A stretch of 62,624 bases of DNA. Source: Petrotoga sp. 9PWA.NaAc.5.4. GTDB taxonomy: Bacteria; Thermotogota; Thermotogae; Petrotogales; Petrotogaceae. Of the stretch, positions 8,509-22,448 are shown in pieces. Below the pieces are notes generated by a model. It saw nothing but the letters and a program-made list of their open reading frames with translations, did not search any database and was not told where the DNA came from. Position numbers and translations under genes: made by a program. Location of the stretch: assembly GCF_002895485.1 (NCBI RefSeq), contig NZ_AZRK01000002.1:231780-294403 (forward strand). The letters are read 5' to 3'. The number at the start of each line of letters is the position of its first letter. The stretch's first letter is position 1.

Positions 8509-9216
8509 TTATTTTTTTAATCCTACAATTATTGTTTTATAGTGGAGTTCTATAAAGAATAGCAGTTTATCTAAATCTTTTTCCTTTAGAGCTTTAAATA
8601 TATTTTTATGGTTTTCTAAAGTTTTTTTATTATAGGTATTAGTAAATAAATAATCTTCTTTCAAAACTTTCCAATATTTCTCATGCATAAAATTTGTTAA
8701 ATAATTCAAAAAATTTTCTATAACTGAATTTTTTGAATATTGTGCATAGATTTGATGAAAATTGTAATCTTGTTCTAAAACACTGTTTAAATCTTTAGAT
8801 TGTATAGATCTCTTAAACTCAAAAAGGATCTCTTCTATTTTATCTATTAATAACTGATCTGAGTTCTTAATAACCAAAGAAGCAATAGCTTTTTCTATTA
8901 TTTTCCTGCTTTCTATTAAATCATCAATATCATAATTTGGCAACGTTATTTCAAAAGAAGAATTTTTTGGATAATTTCGCACAAAATTACCGCTTCCCTG
9001 GATACTTTCAACCACATTTATTGCCTTTAAATAACTTACAACTTCTCTGATAACTATTCGAGAAACATTGTATTGTTTTGCTAAGATTCTTTCCGAAGGA
9101 AGTTTATCTCCTATTTTTATTTTTGATTCTTCTATTTGTTTTAAAAGGTCTTCTATAATTTCTTTACTTTTACCATCCTTTTTAAAACCTTTTATTTCAT
9201 CTATATTCACAATCAC
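8509..9216 (-). CDS. GntR-family (FadR subfamily) transcriptional regulator
   Basis: This 235-residue protein has an N-terminal winged helix (GDKLPSERILAKQYNVSRIVIREVVSYL, residues ~35-65, then QGSGNFV) and a C-terminal all-helical FCD ligand domain. Putative metal-binding residues D and H lie in LEQDYNFHQIY, with further histidines in the last helices. FCD ligands are usually sugar acids or organic acids. It starts at GTG behind GAGGTG. It is the last gene of the minus-strand transport operon, 48 bases after the GPH symporter. The FadR-type palindrome TGGTATTACCA at the divergent promoters (13.8-13.96 kb) is its obvious candidate operator. The effector could be a sulfonated sugar intermediate; that is inference. 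Confidence 0.88.
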   Translation of the reverse strand: MIVNIDEIKGFKKDGKSKEIIEDLLKQIEESKIKIGDKLPSERILAKQYNVSRIVIREVVSYLKAINVVESIQGSGNFVRNYPKNSSFEITLPNYDIDDLIESRKIIEKAIASLVIKNSDQLLIDKIEEILFEFKRSIQSKDLNSVLEQDYNFHQIYAQYSKNSVIENFLNYLTNFMHEKYWKVLKEDYLFTNTYNKKTLENHKNIFKALKEKDLDKLLFFIELHYKTIIVGLKK

Positions 9217-9264: not shown

Positions 9265-10683
9265 TTATATCAATTCTTTCTTTAACTCTACTATTTCCTT
9301 ATCCAAATCAGGATCAACAGGCAAATTTTTCCTTTTTTCTTCAAGATATTTTATCAATTTTTTGTGCTTTTTCGAATCAAGTGGATACTTAATGGCAGCT
9401 ATGATTCCAAAAATTAATAAAATCACCGGAACAAACGCGATAATAAATCGTAGAGCAAAAATGAAAGATTCTGGTTGAAGTTGTTCGACTCCGTCTATTG
9501 GGTTCACAAATCCCGCTACCCCCAATACAAAAGTTACTCCCGCAACCGCTAATCCGGACGCAACTTTTCTAATAAAAGTCATAAGGCCACTCAAACTTCC
9601 CTCTTCTCTTTTACCGAATCTTAGTTCTGCTACATCTGTAACATCTCCAAACATCGTATGTGGCATAACTGCAACACCAGAAACGCCCGCGCCTATTATT
9701 GCTGCCATTAGAATTACTTGAAAAGTACTCACATTGCGAGAAAAACTAAATAATATGACGCTCGCTATGCACCATACTATTGCTCCCAATATATAAGAAA
9801 TATTTTTAGAAGTTTTTTTGGCGACAAATGCGTAAAAAGGGATAAATAGTATTTCTGAGATAAAAAGTGCCCCTAAAGCAATTGGTAACAATCCTTCATT
9901 TCCTAAATAATATTTAGTATAATAAGCGAAGATGGTAGATACAACATCTATGGATAAATATGCTAAAAGATATAAAGTTATCAAAAGTCTAAAGGTTTTT
10001 ATCTTAAAAGGTTCAAAAAACATACTTAAAAAGTTGAAAGAGCTTCTTTCATGCTCAAATTCTTTTCTTTCTCTTGTAAATAAAAAGACGCCGATCCATG
10101 GAAGAGAAAAAATAAGTCCAAAAGTAATAGCCATTGCAATGTATCCTTTTCTTACATCATCGAAAGCATTAACAATCAACATAGGTAAAACAGCACAAGC
10201 TAAACCAGAACCGATCGAAAAAGCTAATCTATAAGAATTAAGAGAAGTTCTTTCATTGTAGTCAAGGGTTAGTTCTGCACCTAAAGCGGTATAAGGTGTC
10301 ATAACCATCGTAATAACTGTAGTAAAAATTAAATAAGCCGAAAGAGCATACAAAAATTTTCCCAATTGATTTGGAAAGTTCACTGGATACCAAAGCATGA
10401 AAAAAGAAATGAATATCAAAAAAATCCCCGCTAAAAAGTATGGTCTTCTCCTTCCAAATTTTGTTCTTGTATTATCAGAAATATAACCCATCATAGGATC
10501 AGTTAGGGCATCCCATATCTTACCAATCAATAAGATAGGCGCAATATACTGCATTTTCAATCCGACAACATCGGTTAAAAATATTGCGTAAAAAAAATTG
10601 ATAATGTTGAACGCTCCGCCCCCGTATATATCCCCTGAAGCATAAAAAAGCTTAGTTTTTAAAGATAGCTTTTCACTCTCCAT
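9265..10683 (-). CDS. GPH-family sugar:cation symporter (YihO/YihP type)
   Basis: The 472-residue integral membrane protein has about 12 hydrophobic segments and the signatures of the glycoside-pentoside-hexuronide (GPH) family of MFS carriers: GKIWDALTDPMMGYISDNTRTKFGRRRPY near residues 48-77. GPH members import glycosides by cation symport; E. coli YihO and YihP in the sulfoquinovose cluster belong to this family. It lies 79 bases downstream of the ABC permease gene and directly before the GntR gene, so it probably shares their operon. Given two ABC importers nearby, it could import sulfoquinovose or export an end product such as sulfolactate. Direction cannot be read from the sequence. Confidence 0.85.
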   Translation of the reverse strand: MESEKLSLKTKLFYASGDIYGGGAFNIINFFYAIFLTDVVGLKMQYIAPILLIGKIWDALTDPMMGYISDNTRTKFGRRRPYFLAGIFLIFISFFMLWYPVNFPNQLGKFLYALSAYLIFTTVITMVMTPYTALGAELTLDYNERTSLNSYRLAFSIGSGLACAVLPMLIVNAFDDVRKGYIAMAITFGLIFSLPWIGVFLFTRERKEFEHERSSFNFLSMFFEPFKIKTFRLLITLYLLAYLSIDVVSTIFAYYTKYYLGNEGLLPIALGALFISEILFIPFYAFVAKKTSKNISYILGAIVWCIASVILFSFSRNVSTFQVILMAAIIGAGVSGVAVMPHTMFGDVTDVAELRFGKREEGSLSGLMTFIRKVASGLAVAGVTFVLGVAGFVNPIDGVEQLQPESFIFALRFIIAFVPVILLIFGIIAAIKYPLDSKKHKKLIKYLEEKRKNLPVDPDLDKEIVELKKELI

Positions 10684-10761: not shown

Positions 10762-11580
10762 CTACCCTTTTATTCCACCGCTCAGTCCTTCAATCAAATA
10801 CTTCTGAAAAGTTAAAGTAATTATAAAAATGGGAATCAACATCAATGTTCCTGCTGCAGCCAACTGTCCCCATTGAGGAGCATATTGACCCATAAACCCG
10901 TTTATTACAACAGGCGCTGTTTTAGCTTGAGTACTTGTTAAAACTAAAGCATATAAAAATTCGTTCCATGACATCATAAAAGTAAAAACTCCTGCAACAA
11001 CTAATCCTGGACCAACGAGAGGCAAAAAAATTTTCCAAAAGATTTTTCTTTTGTCACATCCATCTACCAAAGCTGCTTCTTCATATTCTATCGGGACACC
11101 TGAGAAAAAGGGAAGAAGCACCCATATAACATAAGGAATATTAAAACTCATATGAGCAAAAATTAAAGCCGTTAAAGTATCCGTTAATCCTAAAGATCTA
11201 AACATCATAAAAAGTGGAATAGCCAAAGAAATTTGGGGTATCATTCTTGAAATAAGAAAAGAATATGATAGAACCTTTCTGTACCTAAACCTGAATCTTG
11301 CTATTGCATACGAAGCCATTGCTCCCACTAATAATGAAATAGTAGTAGATAATGTACTTACGATAAGACTATTCTTAATACCTAAAAGAATGTCTTTCCT
11401 CTGGAATATTTTTTTATAACTATCTAAGCTAGGTCTAAAACTAAAAGGATTTGCTGACCATATATCTATATCTTTTTTAAATCCGTTTATAATTATAATT
11501 GCTATTGGAAATAATTCTATAATTAAAATTATAATACTCAACAATATAAGAAAATTTTTTTTAATTTGTTTTTTCTTCAT
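10762..11580 (-). CDS. Carbohydrate ABC transporter permease (MalG type)
   Basis: The 272-residue membrane protein has six hydrophobic segments and the EAA loop typical of MalG/UgpE-type permeases (EYEEAALVDGCDKRKIFWKI, about residues 167-186), which docks on the ATPase. It pairs with the MalF-type permease 19 bases upstream and the binding protein before that. No ATPase gene is present in the operon, so a shared MsmX/UgpC-like subunit encoded elsewhere is needed. The neighbouring sulfo-sugar genes suggest sulfoquinovose or a sulfoquinovosyl glycoside as cargo (inference). Confidence 0.9.
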   Translation of the reverse strand: MKKKQIKKNFLILLSIIILIIELFPIAIIIINGFKKDIDIWSANPFSFRPSLDSYKKIFQRKDILLGIKNSLIVSTLSTTISLLVGAMASYAIARFRFRYRKVLSYSFLISRMIPQISLAIPLFMMFRSLGLTDTLTALIFAHMSFNIPYVIWVLLPFFSGVPIEYEEAALVDGCDKRKIFWKIFLPLVGPGLVVAGVFTFMMSWNEFLYALVLTSTQAKTAPVVINGFMGQYAPQWGQLAAAGTLMLIPIFIITLTFQKYLIEGLSGGIKG

Positions 11581-11599
11581 GTCATCATCCCCCTATAAG

Positions 11600-12481
11600 T
11601 TAATCTATGTCTATGTTTCTTCTAACTAGTAATATGGCTATTATTAAACTTATTATTATCAAAATAACTCCCATAGCAGAAGCATATCCTATATTAAAGT
11701 ATCTAAAGGCTTGTTTATAAATATACAAAGACAATAATGTTGTTGCGTTTCCTGGACCACCTTCAGTCATAACAAAAACTTCTGAAAAAATACGTAAAGC
11801 ATCAATAAGCCTTAATAATAGAGCTGTAGTTATAGTTGGTCTTAATAAAGGAACTATTATTTTTAATGTTTTATTCCAAAATCTTGCCCCATCTAAATCT
11901 GCAGCTTCTAATAAGGAAGTTGGTATATTAATAAGACCTGAATATAGAAACATGAACATAAAAGGCCACATTCTCCAAATATCTTGAATAATCACAAAAG
12001 CATAAGCACTTCCCGGTTTTGCAAGCCAAGCGGTTTGTGGCAAACCCAATTTAGTTAATATAAAGCTTATCGCTCCATACTCCGGTTGAAGCATTAAACG
12101 CCACGTTAATCCAGATAAAACTGGTAAAACAAAAACAGGTAAAAGCAAAAGGCTCCTTATCCATTTAACACCTTTAAACTCTCTGTTTAAAAGGATTGCA
12201 ACAAAGAAACCTATTATCAGTTCTAAAGGTATAGCTATAAATATAAATCCTAATTGCAGTAAAAGGGCATGCCAAAATTCTTTATCTTGGAATATTCTTA
12301 TATAATTAGATATTCCTATAAAACCCCTGGAGGTTTCATCCACAAGAGGCCAATTAAAAAAAGATATTCCTACGGCATATAGAATTGGATAAATCAAAAC
12401 AACTCCAACTAAGATTAAAGCAGGTAATATAAAATAGAGTACAGGGGACTTTTCCCCTGTACCCTTTCTTTTAATAACCAT
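11600..12481 (-). CDS. Carbohydrate ABC transporter permease (MalF/UgpA type)
   Basis: The 293-residue permease has six transmembrane segments and the EAA motif (LLEAADLDGARFWNKTLKI) in its fourth cytoplasmic loop. Its start overlaps the end of the solute-binding-protein gene by 11 bases, so translation is coupled. The length and motif match the MalF/UgpA branch of CUT1 importers without the large periplasmic insert of enteric MalF. It forms the membrane channel with the MalG-type subunit that follows. Confidence 0.9.
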   Translation of the reverse strand: MVIKRKGTGEKSPVLYFILPALILVGVVLIYPILYAVGISFFNWPLVDETSRGFIGISNYIRIFQDKEFWHALLLQLGFIFIAIPLELIIGFFVAILLNREFKGVKWIRSLLLLPVFVLPVLSGLTWRLMLQPEYGAISFILTKLGLPQTAWLAKPGSAYAFVIIQDIWRMWPFMFMFLYSGLINIPTSLLEAADLDGARFWNKTLKIIVPLLRPTITTALLLRLIDALRIFSEVFVMTEGGPGNATTLLSLYIYKQAFRYFNIGYASAMGVILIIISLIIAILLVRRNIDID

Positions 12482-13763
12482 ATCTTACAAGCACCTCGTT
12501 GACTCCTTTTATAATATTATCTATAGCTACTTCCGGTGTAAGTCTGCCAGTTACTCCTGCTAACCAATTAACTTTTATAACATCAGATATTTCTGCATAA
12601 TGTTCGAATCTTGGCCTTGAAACAGAATAATTCATTGACTCAAAAATTCCCAAGAAATAAGGTTTCTCAGAAACAAATTCTGGAGCCAATAAAAGATCTC
12701 TTCTTGCAGGAGTCATTCCAGCTTTTACTAAATCTTTTCCAGCTTCATAAGAAGACCACCAATAAGCGAATTCTGCAGCAGCAGCTTGATTTTTAGATGC
12801 TTTTGGTATTCCTAACATCCATGTTCCTCTTATGGCTGCTTTTTTTGCTGGTCCGGCAGGAGGCGCACTATAATGTATTTTTCCCGCAGCAACAGATTTT
12901 TCAAAATCTTCGTGATCTGGAATCATAGCAGGCCATTGGAACATAGAAAAAACTTTTCCTTGATTAAAGTAAGCTATCCTTTCTGAATGTCCCATGTCTT
13001 GCCAACCAGGAGGTGCATATTTACAAAGCTCTTTGTACATATTCATTGCTTGAATAGCTTTTTCTTTGTCTAAAACAACCTTGTAACTGTCACCATTTTT
13101 TTCTAATACATTCGTGCCGTATGCTTCGAACATAAAAATTGCTTCGCATGTAGCTCCTTCAGCGTTTTTCGTGAAGGGAGCAAAACCATATATCCCTTTA
13201 CTTGATAAGAATTTACTAATATCTAATAACTGGTCAAAGGTTTTGGGTATATCTAATTCATATCCATATTGTTTGTGAAATTCTTCTTTATATTTGTAAT
13301 TATTTACAATATCCTTTCTTGTCATCCAAACGTACACATTGCCATTTATCGGAAGTCCTCTATATTCACCATTCCAATATGAGCCTTCTGCGACTCCCGA
13401 AATCAAATCTGTTTCAAGATCTATTTTTTCGAAAACCTTACCTTCTGGCCAGTCTGAATAGGGTATAAAAAGATTTCCAAACTGTGGTATAAAAGGTTCG
13501 TCTACAGCAACTAAATCGTAATCAGTTTTATTCATAGAGACAGATAAGGCAGTTTTTTCAAGCATCGAACCACTTGGTAATCTTTCCAAAATTACTTTTA
13601 TCCCTGTCTTATTCTCAAAGTCTTTAATCATTGAATCAACGGCTATGGTTAATGCATCGTCCCAAACTAATACTTTTATTGTAGTTCCTTTGTAAGGCTG
13701 AGAAAATAAAGACGTTCCAAACAATAAAAAAACTACCAACAAAAAAGATAATACCTTTTTCAT
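12471..13763 (-). CDS. Sugar ABC transporter solute-binding protein (family 1)
   Basis: The 430-residue protein has an N-terminal signal peptide (MKKVLSFLLVVFLLFGTSLF) without a lipobox cysteine. A family 1 extracellular solute-binding fold follows (KVLVWDDALTIAVDSMIKDFENKTGI, then tryptophan-rich segments such as MFQWPAMIP and FAYWWSSYEAGK). It captures the substrate for the two permeases behind it. It is the first gene of the minus-strand operon, with AAAGGAGG in front and the operator-bearing promoter at 13.80-13.83 kb. The cargo is inferred from context to be sulfoquinovose or its glycerol glycoside. Confidence 0.88.
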   Translation of the reverse strand: MKKVLSFLLVVFLLFGTSLFSQPYKGTTIKVLVWDDALTIAVDSMIKDFENKTGIKVILERLPSGSMLEKTALSVSMNKTDYDLVAVDEPFIPQFGNLFIPYSDWPEGKVFEKIDLETDLISGVAEGSYWNGEYRGLPINGNVYVWMTRKDIVNNYKYKEEFHKQYGYELDIPKTFDQLLDISKFLSSKGIYGFAPFTKNAEGATCEAIFMFEAYGTNVLEKNGDSYKVVLDKEKAIQAMNMYKELCKYAPPGWQDMGHSERIAYFNQGKVFSMFQWPAMIPDHEDFEKSVAAGKIHYSAPPAGPAKKAAIRGTWMLGIPKASKNQAAAAEFAYWWSSYEAGKDLVKAGMTPARRDLLLAPEFVSEKPYFLGIFESMNYSVSRPRFEHYAEISDVIKVNWLAGVTGRLTPEVAIDNIIKGVNEVLVRYGY

Positions 13764-14326: not shown

Positions 14327-15001
14327 ATGAAGTTATTCCTTGATAGCGCTAAAATAGAAGAGATAACCTATGCTATTGAAAAATGGGGAATAGAAGGAGT
14401 AACAAGTAATCCAAAGCACATAAAAAATTCAGGAAAAACTATGGAATATTTCATGAATGAAGTTAAAAACATTGTAGAAGGAACAGATATTACAGTAAGT
14501 GTAGAAATAAATCCACACCTAAATAATGCCGAAGAAATGCTAAAAGAAGCAGAAAAAATTGCGGGCATTTCAAAAAACTTTGTTATTAAAATACCTGCTA
14601 CCGAAGAAGGGCTTTATGCTTTGAAAAAGTTGAGCGGAACCGAAATTAAAGTAAATGCTACTTTAGTTTTTAATTCGTTTCAGGCTTTACAAGCCGCTCG
14701 AATGGGAGCTTACTATATAAGTCCATTTTTAGGTTGGAGAGAAGAAAGAGGAGAAACAAATATAAACTATATTTCTGATATAGTTAACGCTGTTCACAAT
14801 TATGGTTTTAAATCTCAAGTGTTAGTCGCAGCAATAAGGAATGCCAAACAGATAACGGAAGCTATCAATGCTAAAGCTGATATTTTAACCGCGGGATTTG
14901 AGGTATATAAAAATGCTTTCGGGACGCCTTACACTAAAATGGGATTAGAAATATTTAGTGAAGCTTGGGATGCAATAAAAAAACAGGGGGAATTAAAATG
15001 A
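14327..15001 (+). CDS. Transaldolase, probable 6-deoxy-6-sulfofructose transaldolase (SftT-like)
   Basis: The 224-residue protein is a short transaldolase/fructose-6-phosphate aldolase family member. The Schiff-base lysine is K88 in FVIKIPAT, and the strand-1 motif GVTSNPKHI (residues 24-32) is present. A glutamate (E60) sits where fructose-6-phosphate aldolase has its characteristic glutamine, which favours transaldolase activity. In the sulfo-TAL pathway of Bacillota an enzyme of this family splits 6-deoxy-6-sulfofructose, giving sulfolactaldehyde and passing the C3 unit to glyceraldehyde 3-phosphate. It is the first gene of the operon, starts at ATG after GGAGGAGG, and overlaps the next gene as ATGA. 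The family is certain; the sulfonated substrate is inferred from the neighbours. Confidence 0.85.
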   Translation: MKLFLDSAKIEEITYAIEKWGIEGVTSNPKHIKNSGKTMEYFMNEVKNIVEGTDITVSVEINPHLNNAEEMLKEAEKIAGISKNFVIKIPATEEGLYALKKLSGTEIKVNATLVFNSFQALQAARMGAYYISPFLGWREERGETNINYISDIVNAVHNYGFKSQVLVAAIRNAKQITEAINAKADILTAGFEVYKNAFGTPYTKMGLEIFSEAWDAIKKQGELK

Positions 15002-15300
15002 AAGAATATAGATTTTTAGTTCATGAAGAGGGAGATAGTGTTGGTGTAGTAACTAGTGATTTAAAAGCTGGTGAAACAATAATAGGAAAAAATTTAGAAA
15101 AAGATATAGAATATGAGATAAAAGTTTTAGAAGAAATTCCCTTAGGTAATAAAGTTGCGTTAAAAGATATAAAAGAGGGAGAAGAAATAATAGAATACGG
15201 TGAAAAAATTGGAGTAGCAACCAAACCAATTAAAAAAGGCGAAAGAGTTCATGTGCACAATATAAAAAGTATTAGGTGGGGAGGTAAAGTTAATGAATAA
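14998..15300 (+). CDS. suyA: Sulfolactate sulfo-lyase small subunit-like SAF protein (SuyA-like)
   Basis: The 100-residue protein is a lone SAF domain of the UxaA superfamily. It begins FLVHEEGDSVGVV and ends VHVHNIKSIRW, which resembles SuyA, the small subunit of (R)-3-sulfolactate sulfo-lyase, more than the N-terminal domain of altronate dehydratase. The ATG at 14998 overlaps the transaldolase stop; an upstream TTG at 14965 is inside that gene and lacks a ribosome binding site, while AGGGGG precedes 14998. It overlaps the large-subunit gene by 8 bases. With that subunit it should cleave sulfolactate to pyruvate and sulfite. Altronate/galactarate-type dehydration remains possible on sequence alone. 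Confidence 0.75.
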   Translation: MKEYRFLVHEEGDSVGVVTSDLKAGETIIGKNLEKDIEYEIKVLEEIPLGNKVALKDIKEGEEIIEYGEKIGVATKPIKKGERVHVHNIKSIRWGGKVNE

Positions 15301-16447
15301 TAAAATTTTGGGATACATTAGAGAAAATGGTAAAGTCGGTGTAAGAAATCATGTATTAATAATTCCTGTTGATGACATTTCTAATTCTGCAGCAATAGCA
15401 GTAGAAAATATAATACATGGAACAATAGCAATTCCTCATCATTACGGGAGACTTCAATTTGGAAGAGATTTAGATTTGTTCTTTAAAACTATGATTGGAA
15501 CAGGAAGTAACCCAAATGTGGCAGCGGTGATAGTAGTAGGAATAGAACCAAATTGGACAAATAGAATTGCTCAAGGTATTGCTGAAACTGGCAAGCCGGT
15601 GGAAGCTTTTTATATAGAGAAAAATGGTGAATTAAAAACAATAGAAAAAATGGCAAGGTCAGCTTTGAAATTAGTAGAGTACGCAACAGGTTTAAAAAAA
15701 GAATGGGTTGATTTTTCTGAACTCACAATAAGTTTAAAATGTGGAGAATCTGACACAACCTCAGGCTTAGCTTCAAACAGAACTGTTGGTAGATTTGTTG
15801 AAAGATTTTTAGAAGCTAATGGAACAGTGCTTTTCGGAGAAACAACAGAATTAACAGGTGCTGAGCATATCATCGCCCAGCGTTTTAAAAAAGAAGAAGA
15901 TAGAAATAAGTTCTTAAAAATGTTCAATGATTACCAAGAATTAATAAAAGAACAAGGTGTCGACTTATTAGGCTCACAACCTACCGAAGGTAATATTGCC
16001 GGTGGTTTAAGTACAATTGAAGAAAAAGCTCTCGGAAACATTCAAAAGATTGGAAATGCAAGAATTGATAGTGCTTTGGATTATTGTGAACAACCAGTTG
16101 GAAAAGGTTTGCATTTTATGAACACTTCTTCAGCCGCTGCTGAAGCTGTTACTTTATTTGCAGCTACAGGTGCGGTCATACATCTGTTTCCCACTGGCCA
16201 AGGAAACATTATTGGTAACCCTATTGAACCTGTTTTGAAAATAACAGCTAACCCTAAAACAGTAAATTATATGTCAGAACATATAGATTTGGATGTTTCT
16301 GGATTACTGAAGTTAGATGGTACTTTAGATGATTATGCCGATAAATTGTGGAATAAAATAGTTGAAACAGCAAATGGGAAGTTTGTAAAAGCTGAGATAC
16401 TAAAACATAGAGAATTTGTTTTAACAAAATTATTTCCAAGTGCGTGA
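15293..16447 (+). CDS. suyB: Sulfolactate sulfo-lyase large subunit-like protein (SuyB-like, UxaA family)
   Basis: The 384-residue protein is the C-terminal-type subunit of the UxaA/GarD/SuyB superfamily of iron-dependent lyases. It opens GYIRENGKVGVRNHVLIIP, a family hallmark, and has the conserved KCGESDTTSGLASN and ETTELTGAEHI segments. SuyB members remove bisulfite from (R)-sulfolactate; UxaA and GarD members remove water from sugar acids. The split two-gene arrangement and the sulfo-sugar neighbours favour SuyB. No uronate isomerase or oxidoreductase of the altronate route is nearby. The start is ATG 15293 behind GGGGAGG inside the SuyA-like gene. Confidence 0.75.
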   Translation: MNNKILGYIRENGKVGVRNHVLIIPVDDISNSAAIAVENIIHGTIAIPHHYGRLQFGRDLDLFFKTMIGTGSNPNVAAVIVVGIEPNWTNRIAQGIAETGKPVEAFYIEKNGELKTIEKMARSALKLVEYATGLKKEWVDFSELTISLKCGESDTTSGLASNRTVGRFVERFLEANGTVLFGETTELTGAEHIIAQRFKKEEDRNKFLKMFNDYQELIKEQGVDLLGSQPTEGNIAGGLSTIEEKALGNIQKIGNARIDSALDYCEQPVGKGLHFMNTSSAAAEAVTLFAATGAVIHLFPTGQGNIIGNPIEPVLKITANPKTVNYMSEHIDLDVSGLLKLDGTLDDYADKLWNKIVETANGKFVKAEILKHREFVLTKLFPSA

Positions 16448-16454
16448 ATGAAAT

Positions 16455-17693
16455 ATGAGACAAATAAAAATTCCGTATGGCAAAAGTGAGATAGCATTGA
16501 AGATCAAAAATGAAATAGTTGATATAATAGAAAAAAAAGAAAAAAGAAACAAAAAATTAAGCCAAAAAGAAATAAAAGACAAAATAAAAGAATTTATAAA
16601 AATTCTCTCGTTAGAAGAAAAAAAGAATATAGCAATTGCTATACCTGATATTACAAGGCCAAAAATTCCCGAAGAATTTTTAAGGCTTATCTTAGAAAAT
16701 TTGTTAAACAATTTCCAGGGGAACATAAAAATTTTTGTAGGGACAGGTTTACACAGTTTTAAAACGTCTGATATAAATTTACTTATACCAAAAGAGTTTA
16801 AAAATAATCAAAGGCTTAAAGTGTATTTCCATAATGCAAAATCTGAAAATAATGTCTATATTGGAAAAACAAAAAGAGATACTCCAGTATTTATAGAAAA
16901 AGAGTACTATACAAGTGATTTAAAAATTGTAATAGGGGTAGTTGAACCTCATCAATTTGCAGGATTTTCAGGAGGAGCTAAAGGAGCGGTTATAGGGTTA
17001 GGTGGAGAGCAAACTATATCAAAAAATCATTCTCTAATTCTCGATTTTAATTCTAAAATAGGTAAAATAGTAGATAATCCTTTGCGAGAAGATATTGACG
17101 AAGCAGGAAAAATTATAGGAGTAGATTTTTTAATAAATATAATTATGAATAATAACAATGAAATCATGGAATTATTTTGTGGTCAGCATCCCTATTCACA
17201 TAGAGAAGCTGTAAAATATATTGAAAATTTTATAGGAGTACCTATAGAGAAAAAATATGACTTGGTTATCGCTTCTCCGGGAGGATTTCCAAGAGATATA
17301 GATCTTTACCAAGCTCAGAAGGCTTTGACTACAGCTCATTTTTTTTGTAAAAACAAAGGTTCAATATTACTCGTTGCAGAATGCAGCAGGGGAATAGGAG
17401 AGAAAAGCTTTTTAGATCTTATCAAAAGATTTAAATCTCCAGAGTTACTTGTAAAAAACTTTGATTTTGATAACTTTAAAGTTGGTCCTCACAAAGCTTT
17501 AATATTTGCTAAGTTAGCTTTAAATAATGAATTGTTTCTATATTCAGAAAATGTAAGAGATGAACTTAAAGGTACCTTTATAACTCCAATAAAAGATTTA
17601 AAAAGATTTATTGAAGATTTTGGCGAAGATAAAGAAATCTGTATTTTGCCCAAAGCGATTCAGATATTACCTTTGGAAGGAGGAAGTAATTGA
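16455..17693 (+). CDS. LarA-type nickel-dependent 2-hydroxyacid racemase
   Basis: The 412-residue protein is a LarA homologue. Every key residue of Lactobacillus plantarum LarA can be placed at constant offset: D65 and R68 in DITRP, H100 in GTGLH, H166 in VEPHQFAGFSGG, the cofactor-binding K176, and the nickel ligand H192. It therefore should carry the nickel-pincer nucleotide and racemise a 2-hydroxyacid. LarB, LarC and LarE genes needed for cofactor synthesis are not in the window. It starts 7 bases after the SuyB-like stop without a clear Shine-Dalgarno sequence, so translation is coupled. The position between a sulfolactate lyase and an aldehyde dehydrogenase suggests a sulfolactate racemase; that is inference. 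Confidence 0.85.
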   Translation: MRQIKIPYGKSEIALKIKNEIVDIIEKKEKRNKKLSQKEIKDKIKEFIKILSLEEKKNIAIAIPDITRPKIPEEFLRLILENLLNNFQGNIKIFVGTGLHSFKTSDINLLIPKEFKNNQRLKVYFHNAKSENNVYIGKTKRDTPVFIEKEYYTSDLKIVIGVVEPHQFAGFSGGAKGAVIGLGGEQTISKNHSLILDFNSKIGKIVDNPLREDIDEAGKIIGVDFLINIIMNNNNEIMELFCGQHPYSHREAVKYIENFIGVPIEKKYDLVIASPGGFPRDIDLYQAQKALTTAHFFCKNKGSILLVAECSRGIGEKSFLDLIKRFKSPELLVKNFDFDNFKVGPHKALIFAKLALNNELFLYSENVRDELKGTFITPIKDLKRFIEDFGEDKEICILPKAIQILPLEGGSN

Positions 17694-17694
17694 A

Positions 17695-19113
17695 ATGGAA
17701 ATGATTGTTGGTGGAAAAAAAGTAAGCAAAGCAAAAACCTTAAAAGTTTACAATCCATATAGTGGAGAAATAGTTGATGATGTCCCTGATGGTGACATTA
17801 ACGATGTAGAAAATGCAATTAATTCAGCCATAGAGGGTAAAAAGATAATGAAAGATCTTCCTTTGCATAAGAGAGTAGAAATTTTAGAAAACGTATCTAC
17901 TTTGCTTTTAGAAAGAGAAAAAGAATTATCGGAAACAATAGTAAAAGAAGTTGGAAAAACAATAAAAGAAGCTAAAAATGAAGTTATAAGAACTTCTGAA
18001 TTGTTTAGGTACGCTGCAGAAGAGGCAAAAAGAATTCATGGAGAAACACTTCCCTTTTCTTCTTTAAAAGGCTCGGAACATAAAAGAGGATACTATGTGT
18101 TGGAGCCTATTGGCATAGTAGGTGCAATAACTCCCTTCAATGTTCCACTTTCTTTAGCCGCGCACAAAGTTGCTCCAGCGATAGCTGCTGGTAACGCTGT
18201 AATCTTAAAACCGGCTACTCAAACACCTCTTAACGCCCTAATATTAGGAGAATTACTATTAGAAGCAGGAATGCCAGAAAAAGCTTTAAGTGTTCTAACA
18301 GGTAGAGGTAGTATTGTTGGGAATGCAATAGTAAAAGATCCACGGATAAGATTTTTAAGTTTTACAGGAAGTGTCGAAACGGGAGAATACATATGTCAAA
18401 ATGCTGGAATGAAAAAGATAGGACTGGAATTAGGTTCTAATTCTGCTTTAATTGTTATGGATTCTGCAGACTTAGACAAGGCTACTCAAGCAACTGTAGA
18501 TGGGGGTTTTTCTCTTGCGGGACAAGTGTGCATCTCAGTTCAAAGAGTTTTTATACAAGAAAAAGTATACGAAGAGTTTATAAACAAACTTGTTGAAAAA
18601 ACAAAAAGGATCATATTAGGAGATCCTATGGATGAAAAAACAACAATGGGACCTGTAATAGATGAACAAAATGCTCAAAGAATTGTGGAATGGATTCAAG
18701 AAGCAGAAGTCAAAGGTGGGAAAATTGTAACTGGTGGTAAAAGAAATTATACTTTGATAGAACCAACAATAGTTATAGATACACCTTTAGAAACAAAAAT
18801 TATGCAAAATGAACTTTTTGGACCAGCTGTTGCTCTTCGAAAAATTAAATCATTACAAGAAGCAATAGACCTAACAAATCGAAGTATTTATGGACTCCAA
18901 GCAGGTGTATTTACAGAGAAAATAAGTGAAGCTTTCAAAGCTGCAGAAGAAATTGAAGCAGGTGGAGTTATGATAAATGAAGGGCCAAGATATAGAGCTG
19001 ATTTTATGCCTTACGGAGGATACAAAAAGAGTGGAATTGGAAGAGAAGGAATAAAATTTGCTATTGAAGAAATGTCTGAAATGAAAGTAATTTGTTTTGA
19101 TCTAAAGGAGTGA
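17695..19113 (+). CDS. Aldehyde dehydrogenase, probable sulfolactaldehyde dehydrogenase (SlaB-like)
   Basis: The 472-residue protein is a complete NAD(P)-dependent aldehyde dehydrogenase. It shows N149 in TPFNVP, the nucleotide-binding FTGSVETG near 224-230, E245 in KIGLELG and the catalytic C279 in GQVCISVQR. The ATG at 17695 follows GGAAGGAGGA; a reading frame continues 84 bases upstream into the LarA-like gene but has no ribosome binding site. In sulfo-ED and sulfo-TAL clusters an enzyme of this group oxidises (S)-sulfolactaldehyde to (S)-sulfolactate. Lactaldehyde or succinate semialdehyde dehydrogenase are family alternatives; the cluster favours the sulfonated substrate. Confidence 0.83.
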   Translation: MEMIVGGKKVSKAKTLKVYNPYSGEIVDDVPDGDINDVENAINSAIEGKKIMKDLPLHKRVEILENVSTLLLEREKELSETIVKEVGKTIKEAKNEVIRTSELFRYAAEEAKRIHGETLPFSSLKGSEHKRGYYVLEPIGIVGAITPFNVPLSLAAHKVAPAIAAGNAVILKPATQTPLNALILGELLLEAGMPEKALSVLTGRGSIVGNAIVKDPRIRFLSFTGSVETGEYICQNAGMKKIGLELGSNSALIVMDSADLDKATQATVDGGFSLAGQVCISVQRVFIQEKVYEEFINKLVEKTKRIILGDPMDEKTTMGPVIDEQNAQRIVEWIQEAEVKGGKIVTGGKRNYTLIEPTIVIDTPLETKIMQNELFGPAVALRKIKSLQEAIDLTNRSIYGLQAGVFTEKISEAFKAAEEIEAGGVMINEGPRYRADFMPYGGYKKSGIGREGIKFAIEEMSEMKVICFDLKE

Positions 19114-19118
19114 AATAT

Positions 19119-20459
19119 GTGAAAGAAAATATAAATTTGGGAATGATCGGTTTTGTAAGAAACACTTACGATGTTTCAAAAGGTCAAGAAATTTACGATG
19201 AAGAATTGGGTAAACTTAAAAATCGGATCGAGAACATAAACCTTTTTGGTTGGAATAAAGTTGTTGAGTATCCTCAAGAGTTAGACGAAGCCATTAAATA
19301 CTTTAAAAAAAGTGATTTAGATGCAATTATCTTAATGAGCTCTACCTTTCATTTAGGGCAATTAGCTATTATGACAGCAAAAAGTTTAAACATTCCGATG
19401 TTAATTTGGGCGCTACCAGAACCACCGTATGATGGAGGAAGGGTTAGACTTAATTCTTTAGTAGGAGCACATTTAGATTGTTCTAATCTTTATAAATCAG
19501 GTTTTGATAACTTCGAATTTTTATATGGACAAATGTCTGACAATAATTTTTATAATAAAATAAACGTCTGGATAGATACTGTTAGAATAGTTAAAAAGTT
19601 GAAAAATATTAAAATAGGTTTAATAGGGAATCATGCTCAAGGTTTTTATAACATTGATGTATACGAACCTGAAATAGTAAAAGAATTTGGTGCAGAAATA
19701 GAATATGTACCTTTAAACACTGTATTTTCAATTAAAGCAAAAAGTGAAGACATTAAAAATGAAATGGATGAAATCAAACGTATCTATAATTTTGGAGAAA
19801 ATATGACAGAAGATAGATTAGAAAAAGTTGCAAATCTTTCTTTGTCTTTAAAAAATTTAGAAAATCAAAATAAATTCAATGTCATGGCTATAAGATGTTG
19901 GCCAGAATTTGGTAATACTTATGGAATTTCTCCTTGTGCTTCTATGTCTTACTTTATGGGTGAACATATTCCCGTTGCATGTGAAGGTGATATAGAGGGA
20001 GCTTTAGGAATGTCGGCATACAAAGCAATTGGTTGTGATCAAATATTTTTAGCAGATATTAGTCAAATCTTTGAGGAAGAAAGCAGCTTATTATTATGGC
20101 ATTGTGGTGTTGCACCATATAATTTATGGGATGAAAAATCAGAAAAAACTTTGGATAAATATTTTGCAGGAGGGCGTGGAGTTACTGCAGGCTTTGTATT
20201 AAAACCAGGACCAGTAACTATTTCAAGAATAGACTATGCAAGAGGGAAATTTAGATTATTAGTTGTAGAAGGAGAAGCGATACCTACAAGGAAAAACTTA
20301 AAAGGTACTTTCGTGAAAGTAAAAATTCCTAATGCAAAAATTTTTACTGAAAACATTATTTCCAAAGGTTTTTCACATCATGTAGTATTAGGATATGGAA
20401 ACTATGTACAGATTTTAAAAAACTTTGCAAAAATTAAACATTGGGAAGTTTTCGAATAA
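19119..20459 (+). CDS. L-fucose/D-arabinose isomerase-fold protein, probable sulfoquinovose isomerase
   Basis: The 446-residue protein matches the L-fucose isomerase-like fold. Candidate metal and catalytic residues are E289 and D291 in CEGDIEGAL, D313 in ADIS and H328 in LWHCG; RCWPEF near residue 259 is also family-typical. It likely interconverts an aldose and a ketose. In a transaldolase-type sulfoquinovose route the missing step is sulfoquinovose to 6-deoxy-6-sulfofructose, and this is the only isomerase in the cluster. The start is taken as GTG 19119 because AAAGGAG ends 8 bases before it; GTG 19110 would lie inside that site. It follows the dehydrogenase by 5 bases. Confidence 0.75.
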   Translation: MKENINLGMIGFVRNTYDVSKGQEIYDEELGKLKNRIENINLFGWNKVVEYPQELDEAIKYFKKSDLDAIILMSSTFHLGQLAIMTAKSLNIPMLIWALPEPPYDGGRVRLNSLVGAHLDCSNLYKSGFDNFEFLYGQMSDNNFYNKINVWIDTVRIVKKLKNIKIGLIGNHAQGFYNIDVYEPEIVKEFGAEIEYVPLNTVFSIKAKSEDIKNEMDEIKRIYNFGENMTEDRLEKVANLSLSLKNLENQNKFNVMAIRCWPEFGNTYGISPCASMSYFMGEHIPVACEGDIEGALGMSAYKAIGCDQIFLADISQIFEEESSLLLWHCGVAPYNLWDEKSEKTLDKYFAGGRGVTAGFVLKPGPVTISRIDYARGKFRLLVVEGEAIPTRKNLKGTFVKVKIPNAKIFTENIISKGFSHHVVLGYGNYVQILKNFAKIKHWEVFE

Positions 20460-20495
20460 TTTGCTTTTAAAATCTATATAAGGATAGTGTTATTG

Positions 20496-22448
20496 ATGAA
20501 CATAATATCAGAAAGGGGTTCTTTCAAAATTTTTATTAAAGATTTTGAATTATTTAATTCAAACCAAATTTTTTATGGTAGCGGATACCCTAAAATAAGA
20601 GAAAACCATGGACACTTCAAAATACACGAGAAAAAGGTTATAAAAGAGACTGAAAGTACGAACATAAAAATATTAAATTCAGAAGAATCTTCAGTCGCAA
20701 TAAAAATAGAAATTCCTCAAAAATTCAACAGAATAATGATCAAAATTAATGCTTTTGAGTTAGAGCAAATTTTTGGAGGAGGAGAGCAATATACCCATGT
20801 CAATTTGAAAGGGAAAAAATTCCCTATTTGGGTTCAAGAACAAGGTGTCGGAAGAGGTCATGATTTAATTTCATTGGCAACTAAAATAAAGGGTATTAGT
20901 GGAAGTTGGTATAGTACTTATTTCCCTTCACCTATTTTTCTATCGACTATGGGGTATGCCTTAATCTTTGAAACATATTCTCCCCTAATAGTAGACTTAA
21001 AAAGAAAAATATCACTCTTTGAAATTTGGGACAATCAAGTAAAGATCATAATAATGCAGGGAGAAAGTATTAGGGAATTACGCCAAAAAATAAAATCTCA
21101 TTTCAATTTGTTACATACATTACCTGATTGGATTCATGGAACAATTATCGCTTCTCAAGGAGGTACAGAAATTTTATCAAAGAAAGTTGACTTACTGACA
21201 CAAAAAGAAGTTCCACTTAGTGCTGTTTGGTGTCAAGATTGGTCAGGAACTAATAGAACATCTTTTGGGAGACAAGTTTATTGGAATTGGGAATATGACA
21301 ATAACTCTTATAAAAACTTACCTCAAAAAATTCAAGAATTAAATACTCAAGGTATTAAGTTTCTTTCTTACATAAATCCTTTTCTCATCGAGGGAAGTAG
21401 ATTATTTAACATTGCGAAAGAAAAAAACTACTTTGTAAAAAATTCTCAAGGGGAGATTTATAAGATTTATGTTACAACTTTTCCTGCCGGACTTATAGAT
21501 TTAACTAACAAAGATGCTTATAATTGGTACAAAGAAATCATTAAAAACAATATGATAAACATAGGTACCTCAGGGTGGATGGCTGATTTTGGTGAATATT
21601 TACCAATCGATGCAGTTTTATTTTCTAAAGGAGATTCTATTAAATACCATAATAAATATTCCGTTGATTGGGCTAAACTAAATTATGAAGCCATTGTAGA
21701 ATCTAAAAAAGAGGATATTATTTTCTTTATGAGATCTGGATATTTAGATTCAGTCTCATATTGTCCAGTGTATTGGGCAGGAGATCAAAACGTTAATTGG
21801 AGTAAAAGTGATGGAATCGCTTCTATTATTCCAGCAGGTTTAAGCTCTGGGCTTGGAGGTGTAGATTTTTTTCATTGGGATGCTGGAGGATATACCTCTT
21901 TATTGTGGATGAAAAGAACACCCGAACTATTTATGCGTTGGATAGAATTAAGTGCATTTTCTTTAATTATGCGAACACACGAAAGTAATAGACCAGATAG
22001 AAATATTCAGTTCGATTCCAACGAAAAAATTTTTAAACATTTTATTTGGATGTCAAAAGTTCATTATTCTTTAAAAAATTATTTAAAATACCAAATTAAA
22101 GAAAGTTTAGAGCAAAAATTGCCTGTTATGAGGCCTCTATCTCTCAATTATCCAGAAGATATAAAAAGCTATACGCAACTTTATCAATACATGTTAGGTA
22201 GAGACTTATTAATAGCGCCTATTTTATCTAAGAAGAAAAATGAGCGACAAGTTTACTTACCACCTGATAACTGGGTGTATCTGTGGAACCATAAAAAATA
22301 TTCAGGCAATAAATATATTAAAGTAAAAGCTACTATAGGATACATTCCAGTTTTTATCAAAGAAAGTTCTCCTTATGTTGATCAGATAATTTTTGAAATT
22401 GAACAATTAAGAGAAAAACTTAATATAGATACCGAAATTTTTTGTTAA
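20496..22448 (+). CDS. GH31 alpha-sulfoquinovosidase (YihQ-like)
   Basis: The 650-residue glycoside hydrolase family 31 enzyme follows E. coli YihQ closely. The nucleophile is D364 in GWMADFGEYLP and the acid/base is D430 in WAGDQNV; MRTHESNRP is also shared. Placing the YihQ substrate residues by constant offset gives Q221 (Q262), Q247 (Q288), W263 (W304) and Y466 (Y508), but Q260 instead of R301. It should release sulfoquinovose from sulfoquinovosyl glycerol or plant sulfolipid. It lacks a signal peptide, so it acts in the cytosol after import. The ATG at 20496 is chosen over GTG 20487 and TTG 20493 because AGGA at 20481 is best spaced. It is the last gene of the operon. Confidence 0.85.
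   Translation: MNIISERGSFKIFIKDFELFNSNQIFYGSGYPKIRENHGHFKIHEKKVIKETESTNIKILNSEESSVAIKIEIPQKFNRIMIKINAFELEQIFGGGEQYTHVNLKGKKFPIWVQEQGVGRGHDLISLATKIKGISGSWYSTYFPSPIFLSTMGYALIFETYSPLIVDLKRKISLFEIWDNQVKIIIMQGESIRELRQKIKSHFNLLHTLPDWIHGTIIASQGGTEILSKKVDLLTQKEVPLSAVWCQDWSGTNRTSFGRQVYWNWEYDNNSYKNLPQKIQELNTQGIKFLSYINPFLIEGSRLFNIAKEKNYFVKNSQGEIYKIYVTTFPAGLIDLTNKDAYNWYKEIIKNNMINIGTSGWMADFGEYLPIDAVLFSKGDSIKYHNKYSVDWAKLNYEAIVESKKEDIIFFMRSGYLDSVSYCPVYWAGDQNVNWSKSDGIASIIPAGLSSGLGGVDFFHWDAGGYTSLLWMKRTPELFMRWIELSAFSLIMRTHESNRPDRNIQFDSNEKIFKHFIWMSKVHYSLKNYLKYQIKESLEQKLPVMRPLSLNYPEDIKSYTQLYQYMLGRDLLIAPILSKKKNERQVYLPPDNWVYLWNHKKYSGNKYIKVKATIGYIPVFIKESSPYVDQIIFEIEQLREKLNIDTEIFC

Follow-up and report, generated by a model that had tools for sequence, protein, structure and literature searches.

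A LarA-superfamily protein as the likely sulfolactate racemase of a Petrotoga sulfoquinovose cluster

Introduction

Sulfoquinovose (SQ) ranks among the most abundant organosulfur compounds. (S)-Sulfolactaldehyde (SLA) is the product of the sulfosugar aldolases, and the accepted route from (S)- to (R)-sulfolactate, ahead of the R-specific lyase SuyAB, is a two-enzyme racemase formed by SlcC and ComC (PMC12421959; PMC9594981). SuyAB has previously been reported in extended sulfo-TAL clusters of Thermotogae and Chloroflexi (PMC9594981), to which the cluster described here belongs; the text of that review is silent on the inversion step and on LarA, and the passage from (S)-sulfolactate to an R-specific lyase was previously undescribed for the clusters of Thermotogota and Anaerolineae. 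The nearest characterized groups of the LarA superfamily turn over malate, an isostere of sulfolactate (PMC7583248). Sulfonates do not occur in two surveys of this superfamily, and a LarA-type sulfolactate racemase is unnamed in the open literature, which was the range of the search and leaves priority uncertain. Here we describe a window of 62,624 nucleotides from Petrotoga sp. 9PWA.NaAc.5.4 (contig NZ_AZRK01000002.1, positions 231,780 to 294,403), one gene of which probably encodes a LarA-superfamily racemase with 3-sulfolactate as its physiological substrate. The substrate, the use of the nickel-pincer cofactor (NPN) and the direction of the reaction are what we infer from the genes, their linkage, their alternation with SlcC/ComC, and the residues and fold of the protein.

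Organization of the Petrotoga cluster

The host genome (2.22 Mb, 99.8% complete) has as its closest named relative in genome collections a Thermotogota metagenome-assembled genome with the same cluster. Seven genes on the forward strand of the window form a near-gapless run. It opens with a TalC/FSA-type transaldolase (TAL; 14327-15001; PF00923, 146 bits), a candidate sulfofructose transaldolase (sulfo-TAL) that is 82-86% identical to its counterparts in syntenic Petrotogaceae and 49-53% identical to those of Anaerolineae SQ clusters. The TAL stop is overlapped by 4 bp by the start of SuyA (14998-15300), the SAF-domain small subunit of sulfolactate sulfo-lyase (PF08666, 32 bits), which is followed by SuyB (15293-16447), the catalytic subunit of the predicted (R)-sulfolactate sulfo-lyase, with GD_AH domains. 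SuyB is 57.9% identical to its homologue from the hpsN-hpsO-suyA locus of Cupriavidus pinatubonensis and 55-61% identical to proteobacterial and actinobacterial SuyB proteins in known contexts, compared with 37-39% for other UxaA proteins; these identities lie in the true SuyB range and assign it to the SuyB group rather than the altronate/galactarate group.

The LarA gene (16455-17693) begins 8 bp past the end of SuyB (16447) and overlaps the start of the aldehyde dehydrogenase (ALDH) gene (17689) by 5 bp, and so lies between the lyase and dehydrogenase genes, as the initial annotation had stated. The ALDH (17689-19113; PF00171, 520 bits) is an NAD(P)-dependent enzyme and a candidate sulfolactaldehyde dehydrogenase, with lactaldehyde dehydrogenase as its top NCBIfam model (537 bits, under that model's cut-off). 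The run closes with an SftI-like sulfoquinovose isomerase (19110-20459; PF02952; NF048012, 256 bits, short of the cut-off of 700) and a GH31 sulfoquinovosidase of the YihQ type (20487-22448; PRK10426, 732 bits, above the cut-off of 553). Upstream, on the opposite strand, lie a GntR/FCD regulator of the cluster (8509-9216; PF00392, PF07729), syntenic in three relatives, an MFS_2 sugar/cation symporter (9265-10683; PF13347, 282 bits) that shares 80-83% identity with its counterparts in syntenic relatives, and an ABC sugar transporter with two permeases and a binding protein (10762-13763), syntenic and 75-87% identical in three relatives. The whole is an extended sulfo-TAL sulfoquinovose cluster with SuyAB.

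In the proposed pathway, GH31 would release sulfoquinovose, SftI would isomerize it, and the transaldolase would yield (S)-SLA, which the ALDH would convert to (S)-sulfolactate. LarA would then invert the configuration at C2, and the resulting (R)-sulfolactate would be cleaved by SuyAB to pyruvate and sulfite. If true, a one-protein, redox-neutral racemase would allow one anaerobe on its own to use sulfoquinovose completely.

Residues, fold and family of the LarA protein

The LarA open reading frame has an ATG start, is free of internal stops and encodes 412 amino acids with Lar_N (PF09861, 132 bits) and LarA_C (PF21113, 53 bits) domains. All the catalytic positions named in the initial annotation (D65, R68, H100, H166, K176 and H192) were found, and they are invariant across 18 diverse members; further C-domain residues, Y285, Q286 and K289, correspond to Y294, Q295 and K298, which bind the substrate in LarA. 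An AlphaFold2 model, with 18 related sequences as input, has a mean pLDDT of 90.8 and TM scores of 0.90 to NPN-bound LarA (5huq) and 0.89 to lactate racemase (2yjg). By domains, residues and fold, the protein is a member of the LarA superfamily, and residues and fold make its nickel dependence probable.

Assignment within the superfamily is less direct. The top family is LarAH5, named 'malate racemase' (NF052595), at 423 bits and below the cut-off of 462; two relatives score 391 and 386, also below the cut-off, and the SQ-linked LarAs of Anaerolineae pass it at 511-532 bits. The window protein is only ~32-36% identical to the above-cut-off LarAH5 members compared, and among solved structures Mar2 is nearest to it in sequence. 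In every SQ-linked LarA the second catalytic His is followed by PHQF and helix 14 contains GPHK, where Mar2 has LHYK and GAHK. The PHQF and GPHK motifs also occur together in other Anaerolineae LarAs with no SuyB nearby, and are therefore compatible with sulfolactate rather than proof of it. Placement in the superfamily tree, which the initial annotation had called for, set these proteins apart in one respect: in a careful tree, the SQ-linked LarAs of Petrotogaceae and Anaerolineae fall outside the LarAH6/Mar2 clade, but they form separate clades rather than one, with the Petrotogaceae clade on a long branch. A quick tree of 94 rows also stands behind this placement. On this phylogeny, either the sulfolactate role would have been adopted twice or the Petrotogaceae LarA line would have diverged fast.

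Conservation of the SuyB-LarA linkage

The order TAL-SuyA-SuyB-LarA-ALDH-SftI-GH31 is also found in three other Petrotogaceae genomes, with identities of 58-62% for LarA, 85-88% for SuyB and 75-79% for ALDH. LarA (16455-17693 in the window) changes much faster in this family than the adjoining SuyB (15293-16447). In Anaerolineae, TAL-SuyA-SuyB-LarA together with GH31 is present in six original loci (L051, L054, L056, L057, L071 and L084) and in a seventh, L189, recovered by an unbiased search. A PF03601 exporter lies between SuyB and LarA in four of the seven, and an SftI-like gene is present in six; L054 opens within the TAL gene, with the SftI region out of view. In place of the ALDH, the six original loci have an aldehyde:ferredoxin oxidoreductase (AFOR; Pfam-confirmed in L051), a candidate sulfolactaldehyde:ferredoxin oxidoreductase. 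It is encoded at L051:12317-14550 and at equivalent positions in the other five, in most with a ThiS/MoaD-like gene alongside, and a gene for an M24 peptidase-like protein lies between LarA and AFOR (L051:11260-12348 and equivalents) in the Anaerolineae SQ clusters examined.

Petrotogaceae and Anaerolineae yielded 11 SQ (SftI/TAL/GH31) plus SuyAB clusters, every one of them with LarA. Between the two groups, identity is 26-31% for SftI and 29-35% for LarA; for GH31 it is 22-25% in most comparisons and 31-35% for L054 and L189. Given such divergence of SftI and GH31, the clusters were put together largely from different parts, with LarA kept in both. SuyB was detected in 17 of 400 Chloroflexota genomes. 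Two of the 400 hold both an above-cut-off LarAH5 gene and SuyB, at spacings of 41 and 67 bp; together with the order kept in the three other Petrotogaceae, this spacing takes the SuyB-LarA linkage beyond chance. The notion that all LarAH5 proteins are sulfolactate racemases can be ruled out, as 12 of the 14 above-cut-off Chloroflexota members lie in genomes without SuyB, and the LarAH5 name alone is therefore uninformative on sulfolactate.

Elsewhere, L049 is an Acidimicrobiia contig on which SuyB adjoins LarA. In Candidatus Desulfopertinax, a sulfolactate-type locus (L050) has LarA ~2.5 kb from SuyB, with ComC-like and GntR genes between them and a tricarboxylate-transporter-like binding protein, assigned by eye, close by. 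Viral sequences scanned with SuyB gave a single trivial match of 24 residues. Several other LarA loci were set apart. Those with a SuyAB-like pair adjoining LarA (L035/L058 and L055) were rejected as sulfolactate loci: identity between the lyase and SuyB is only 38-40%, the LarA of L055 is LarAH6, and a malic enzyme is adjacent. The malic enzyme, SuyAB-like pair and LarA form one run in these other Thermotogota (L055:7203-11260; L035:6836-10882), which probably serves malate or tartrate and includes a paralogue of SuyAB. The LarA of a Rubrobacter plasmid was set aside as a sulfonate-linked candidate, with no sulfonate genes nearby. A LarAH5 gene beside a PLP enzyme and a PF03601-type exporter (L211:2255-6550), in a genome without SuyB, possibly marks another sulfonate pathway.

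Alternation with SlcC and ComC

Six complete SQ plus SuyAB clusters from other Chloroflexota (L191-L194, L196 and L199) have no LarA and carry an SlcC-like D-2-hydroxyacid dehydrogenase (2-Hacid_dh) and a ComC-like Ldh_2 protein beside SuyAB. Three further Chloroflexota clusters are cut by contig ends, with SlcC visible in two. Conversely, none of the 11 LarA clusters has an SlcC plus ComC pair. This absence of overlap (11 versus 6) gives p ~8e-5 against random assignment and 6e-4 within Chloroflexota, figures that serve as a guide only, the clusters not being independent by descent. The ComC family (PF02615; Ldh_2) is present in all three SlcC/ComC genomes tested and missing genome-wide in 10 of the 11 LarA genomes. 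The host is among these ten, and SlcC has no match in the window, which bears out the earlier claim that no such dehydrogenase pair exists here. The role of LarA is best supported by its position in the slot otherwise held by SlcC/ComC, and it is a well-supported reading of this gene content that LarA would replace the pair for inversion of (S)- to (R)-sulfolactate.

Supply of the nickel-pincer cofactor

Maturation genes were sought with profiles PF01969, TIGR00299, NF033503 and TIGR00268; such genes often accompany LarA but are no property of the protein as such. The initial annotation had looked to larB, larC and larE elsewhere in the genome and held that their absence would refute the proposal; the host genome has no LarC, its sole LarB relative is PurE, and no LarE scores above the family cut-off, the relatives being NAD synthase, GMP synthase and one orphan PP-loop protein. 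The latter (G000:C5:9271-10284; L229, P0001) has 337 amino acids with a CxxC motif and a later Cys; LarE is its top family, although the 37 bits fall well short of the cut-off of 150, and it is 29% identical over 154 residues to a true LarE, making it a candidate divergent sulfur transferase. An assembly gap is ruled out as the cause of the missing LarC, which is absent from all 37 other members of the family or order searched (G001-G037), several of them single-contig. LarA homologues are common in the Petrotogaceae among these genomes and occur in those of a second family of the order. LarC is also missing in 10 of the 11 genomes with SQ-linked LarA. Among Chloroflexota it accompanies other LarA-like genes in 68 of 79 genomes, LarAH5 in 7 of 14, and the SQ-linked LarA of Anaerolineae in one of seven. 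One genome with an SQ-linked LarA, G057, carries both LarB and LarC.

A second LarA of the host genome, of the lactate racemase type, is likewise without Lar maturation genes. It belongs to a rhamnose locus (G000:C7:3558-11705; L040) that encodes an AldA-type lactaldehyde dehydrogenase, LarA, EtfBA, a GlcD-like oxidase, an aldolase and rhamnulokinase, and that parallels the SQ cluster in pairing an aldehyde dehydrogenase with a racemase as the next step. Taken literally, the missing genes are the refuting outcome named in the initial annotation. Because this canonical-looking LarA and LarAs across the order share the absence, because 18 diverse members show no variation at the cofactor residues, and because G057 has LarB and LarC, we read them as a sign of cofactor supply by other means rather than as a refutation. 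The one-step nickel-pincer sulfolactate racemase of the initial annotation holds up as to its role, which is favored by linkage in two phyla, alternation with SlcC/ComC, the lack of ComC in 10 of 11 genomes, a pocket signature in common and a SuyB of true range; its nickel part draws on residues and fold, with no LarB, no LarC and no above-cut-off LarE alongside. SuyAB releases sulfite, which inhibits Lactiplantibacillus plantarum LarA reversibly and competitively (PMC11851776), a point against the sulfolactate racemase reading.

A broader proposal can be put forward tentatively, as somewhat less likely than not: sulfolactate racemases of the LarA superfamily may run without LarB, LarC or a recognizable LarE, taking NPN from the community like a vitamin or producing it through a pathway yet to be described, and some members of the 'malate racemase' family LarAH5, perhaps including Mar1, may really be sulfolactate racemases. 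With the cofactor genes absent, NPN sharing or a second NPN pathway becomes open to direct test. If LarA does racemize sulfolactate, nickel-pincer enzymes gain a sulfonate substrate, and the LarAH5 label 'malate racemase' is unsafe.

Alternative explanations

The window protein could be a racemase of malate, or of a tartrate-like acid, as the LarAH5 and LarAH6 models have it, its position in the cluster being incidental. Its top family, its nearest solved structure (Mar2) and its retained GxHK anion motif all agree with this; however, the 423 bits fall below the family cut-off, the window cluster has no malate enzyme where true LarAH6 loci such as L055 carry a malic enzyme, and LarA alternates with SlcC/ComC rather than with malate genes. 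For Mar1, the founding member, the reported KM for malate is 55 mM, in a paper that itself questions malate as the native substrate (PMC7583248). We therefore regard a malate racemase as improbable. Much the same low standing applies to direct cleavage of (S)-sulfolactate by SuyAB, with LarA salvaging external (R)- or racemic sulfolactate or acting on another hydroxy acid. The SuyAB of Desulfovibrio DF1 was indeed reconstituted after DHPS and SLA dehydrogenases with no racemase named (PMC6278857), but the SuyAB enzymes characterized so far are R-specific (PMC9594981; PMC12890257). Moreover, LarA is a firmly retained member of the operon, and LarA-free clusters carry SlcC plus ComC, a pattern that makes sense only if inversion is needed.

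A slightly stronger contender, though still an unlikely one, is that the LarA-like protein performs the sulfolactate or a related step without NPN, by means of another cofactor or metal, given that these genomes cannot make NPN. The lack of LarB, LarC and a recognizable LarE in the host, and the contrast between LarC in one of 11 SQ-linked LarA genomes and in 68 of 79 other LarA-like Chloroflexota genomes, speak for it. Set against this are the invariance of the six catalytic and cofactor positions in 18 diverse members, the same gene absence around the lactate racemase-type LarA of the rhamnose operon, and the LarB and LarC of G057. An NPN-using sulfolactate racemase remains our preferred account.

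Comparison with characterized LarA proteins and SlcC/ComC

Mar1 of Desulfitobacterium hafniense, a LarAH5 protein (NF052595), shares with the window LarA the GxHK motif, the LarA fold and a second catalytic His that is followed by Gln or His. Its tested activity is on malate, and the word 'sulfolactate' does not occur in the paper describing it (PMC7583248). In D. hafniense, sulfolactate serves as an electron acceptor (PMC12890257), and a SuyB candidate is on record (PMC6278857); Mar1 may itself be a sulfolactate racemase. Mar2 of Thermoanaerobacterium thermosaccharolyticum (6d6z; 7s91) shares the fold, the catalytic set, the Gln before the catalytic Lys and the helix-14 Lys, but differs at the LHYK and GAHK sites and falls in a separate clade with LarAH6. 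A functional counterpart is the SlcC/ComC pair of Chromohalobacter and Paracoccus, which occupies the same step as that proposed for LarA, between SLA dehydrogenase and SuyAB. In contrast to the single LarA protein, SlcC and ComC are two NAD(P)-dependent dehydrogenases that act via free sulfopyruvate and are non-homologous to LarA, and in the SQ clusters compared the two systems are mutually exclusive.
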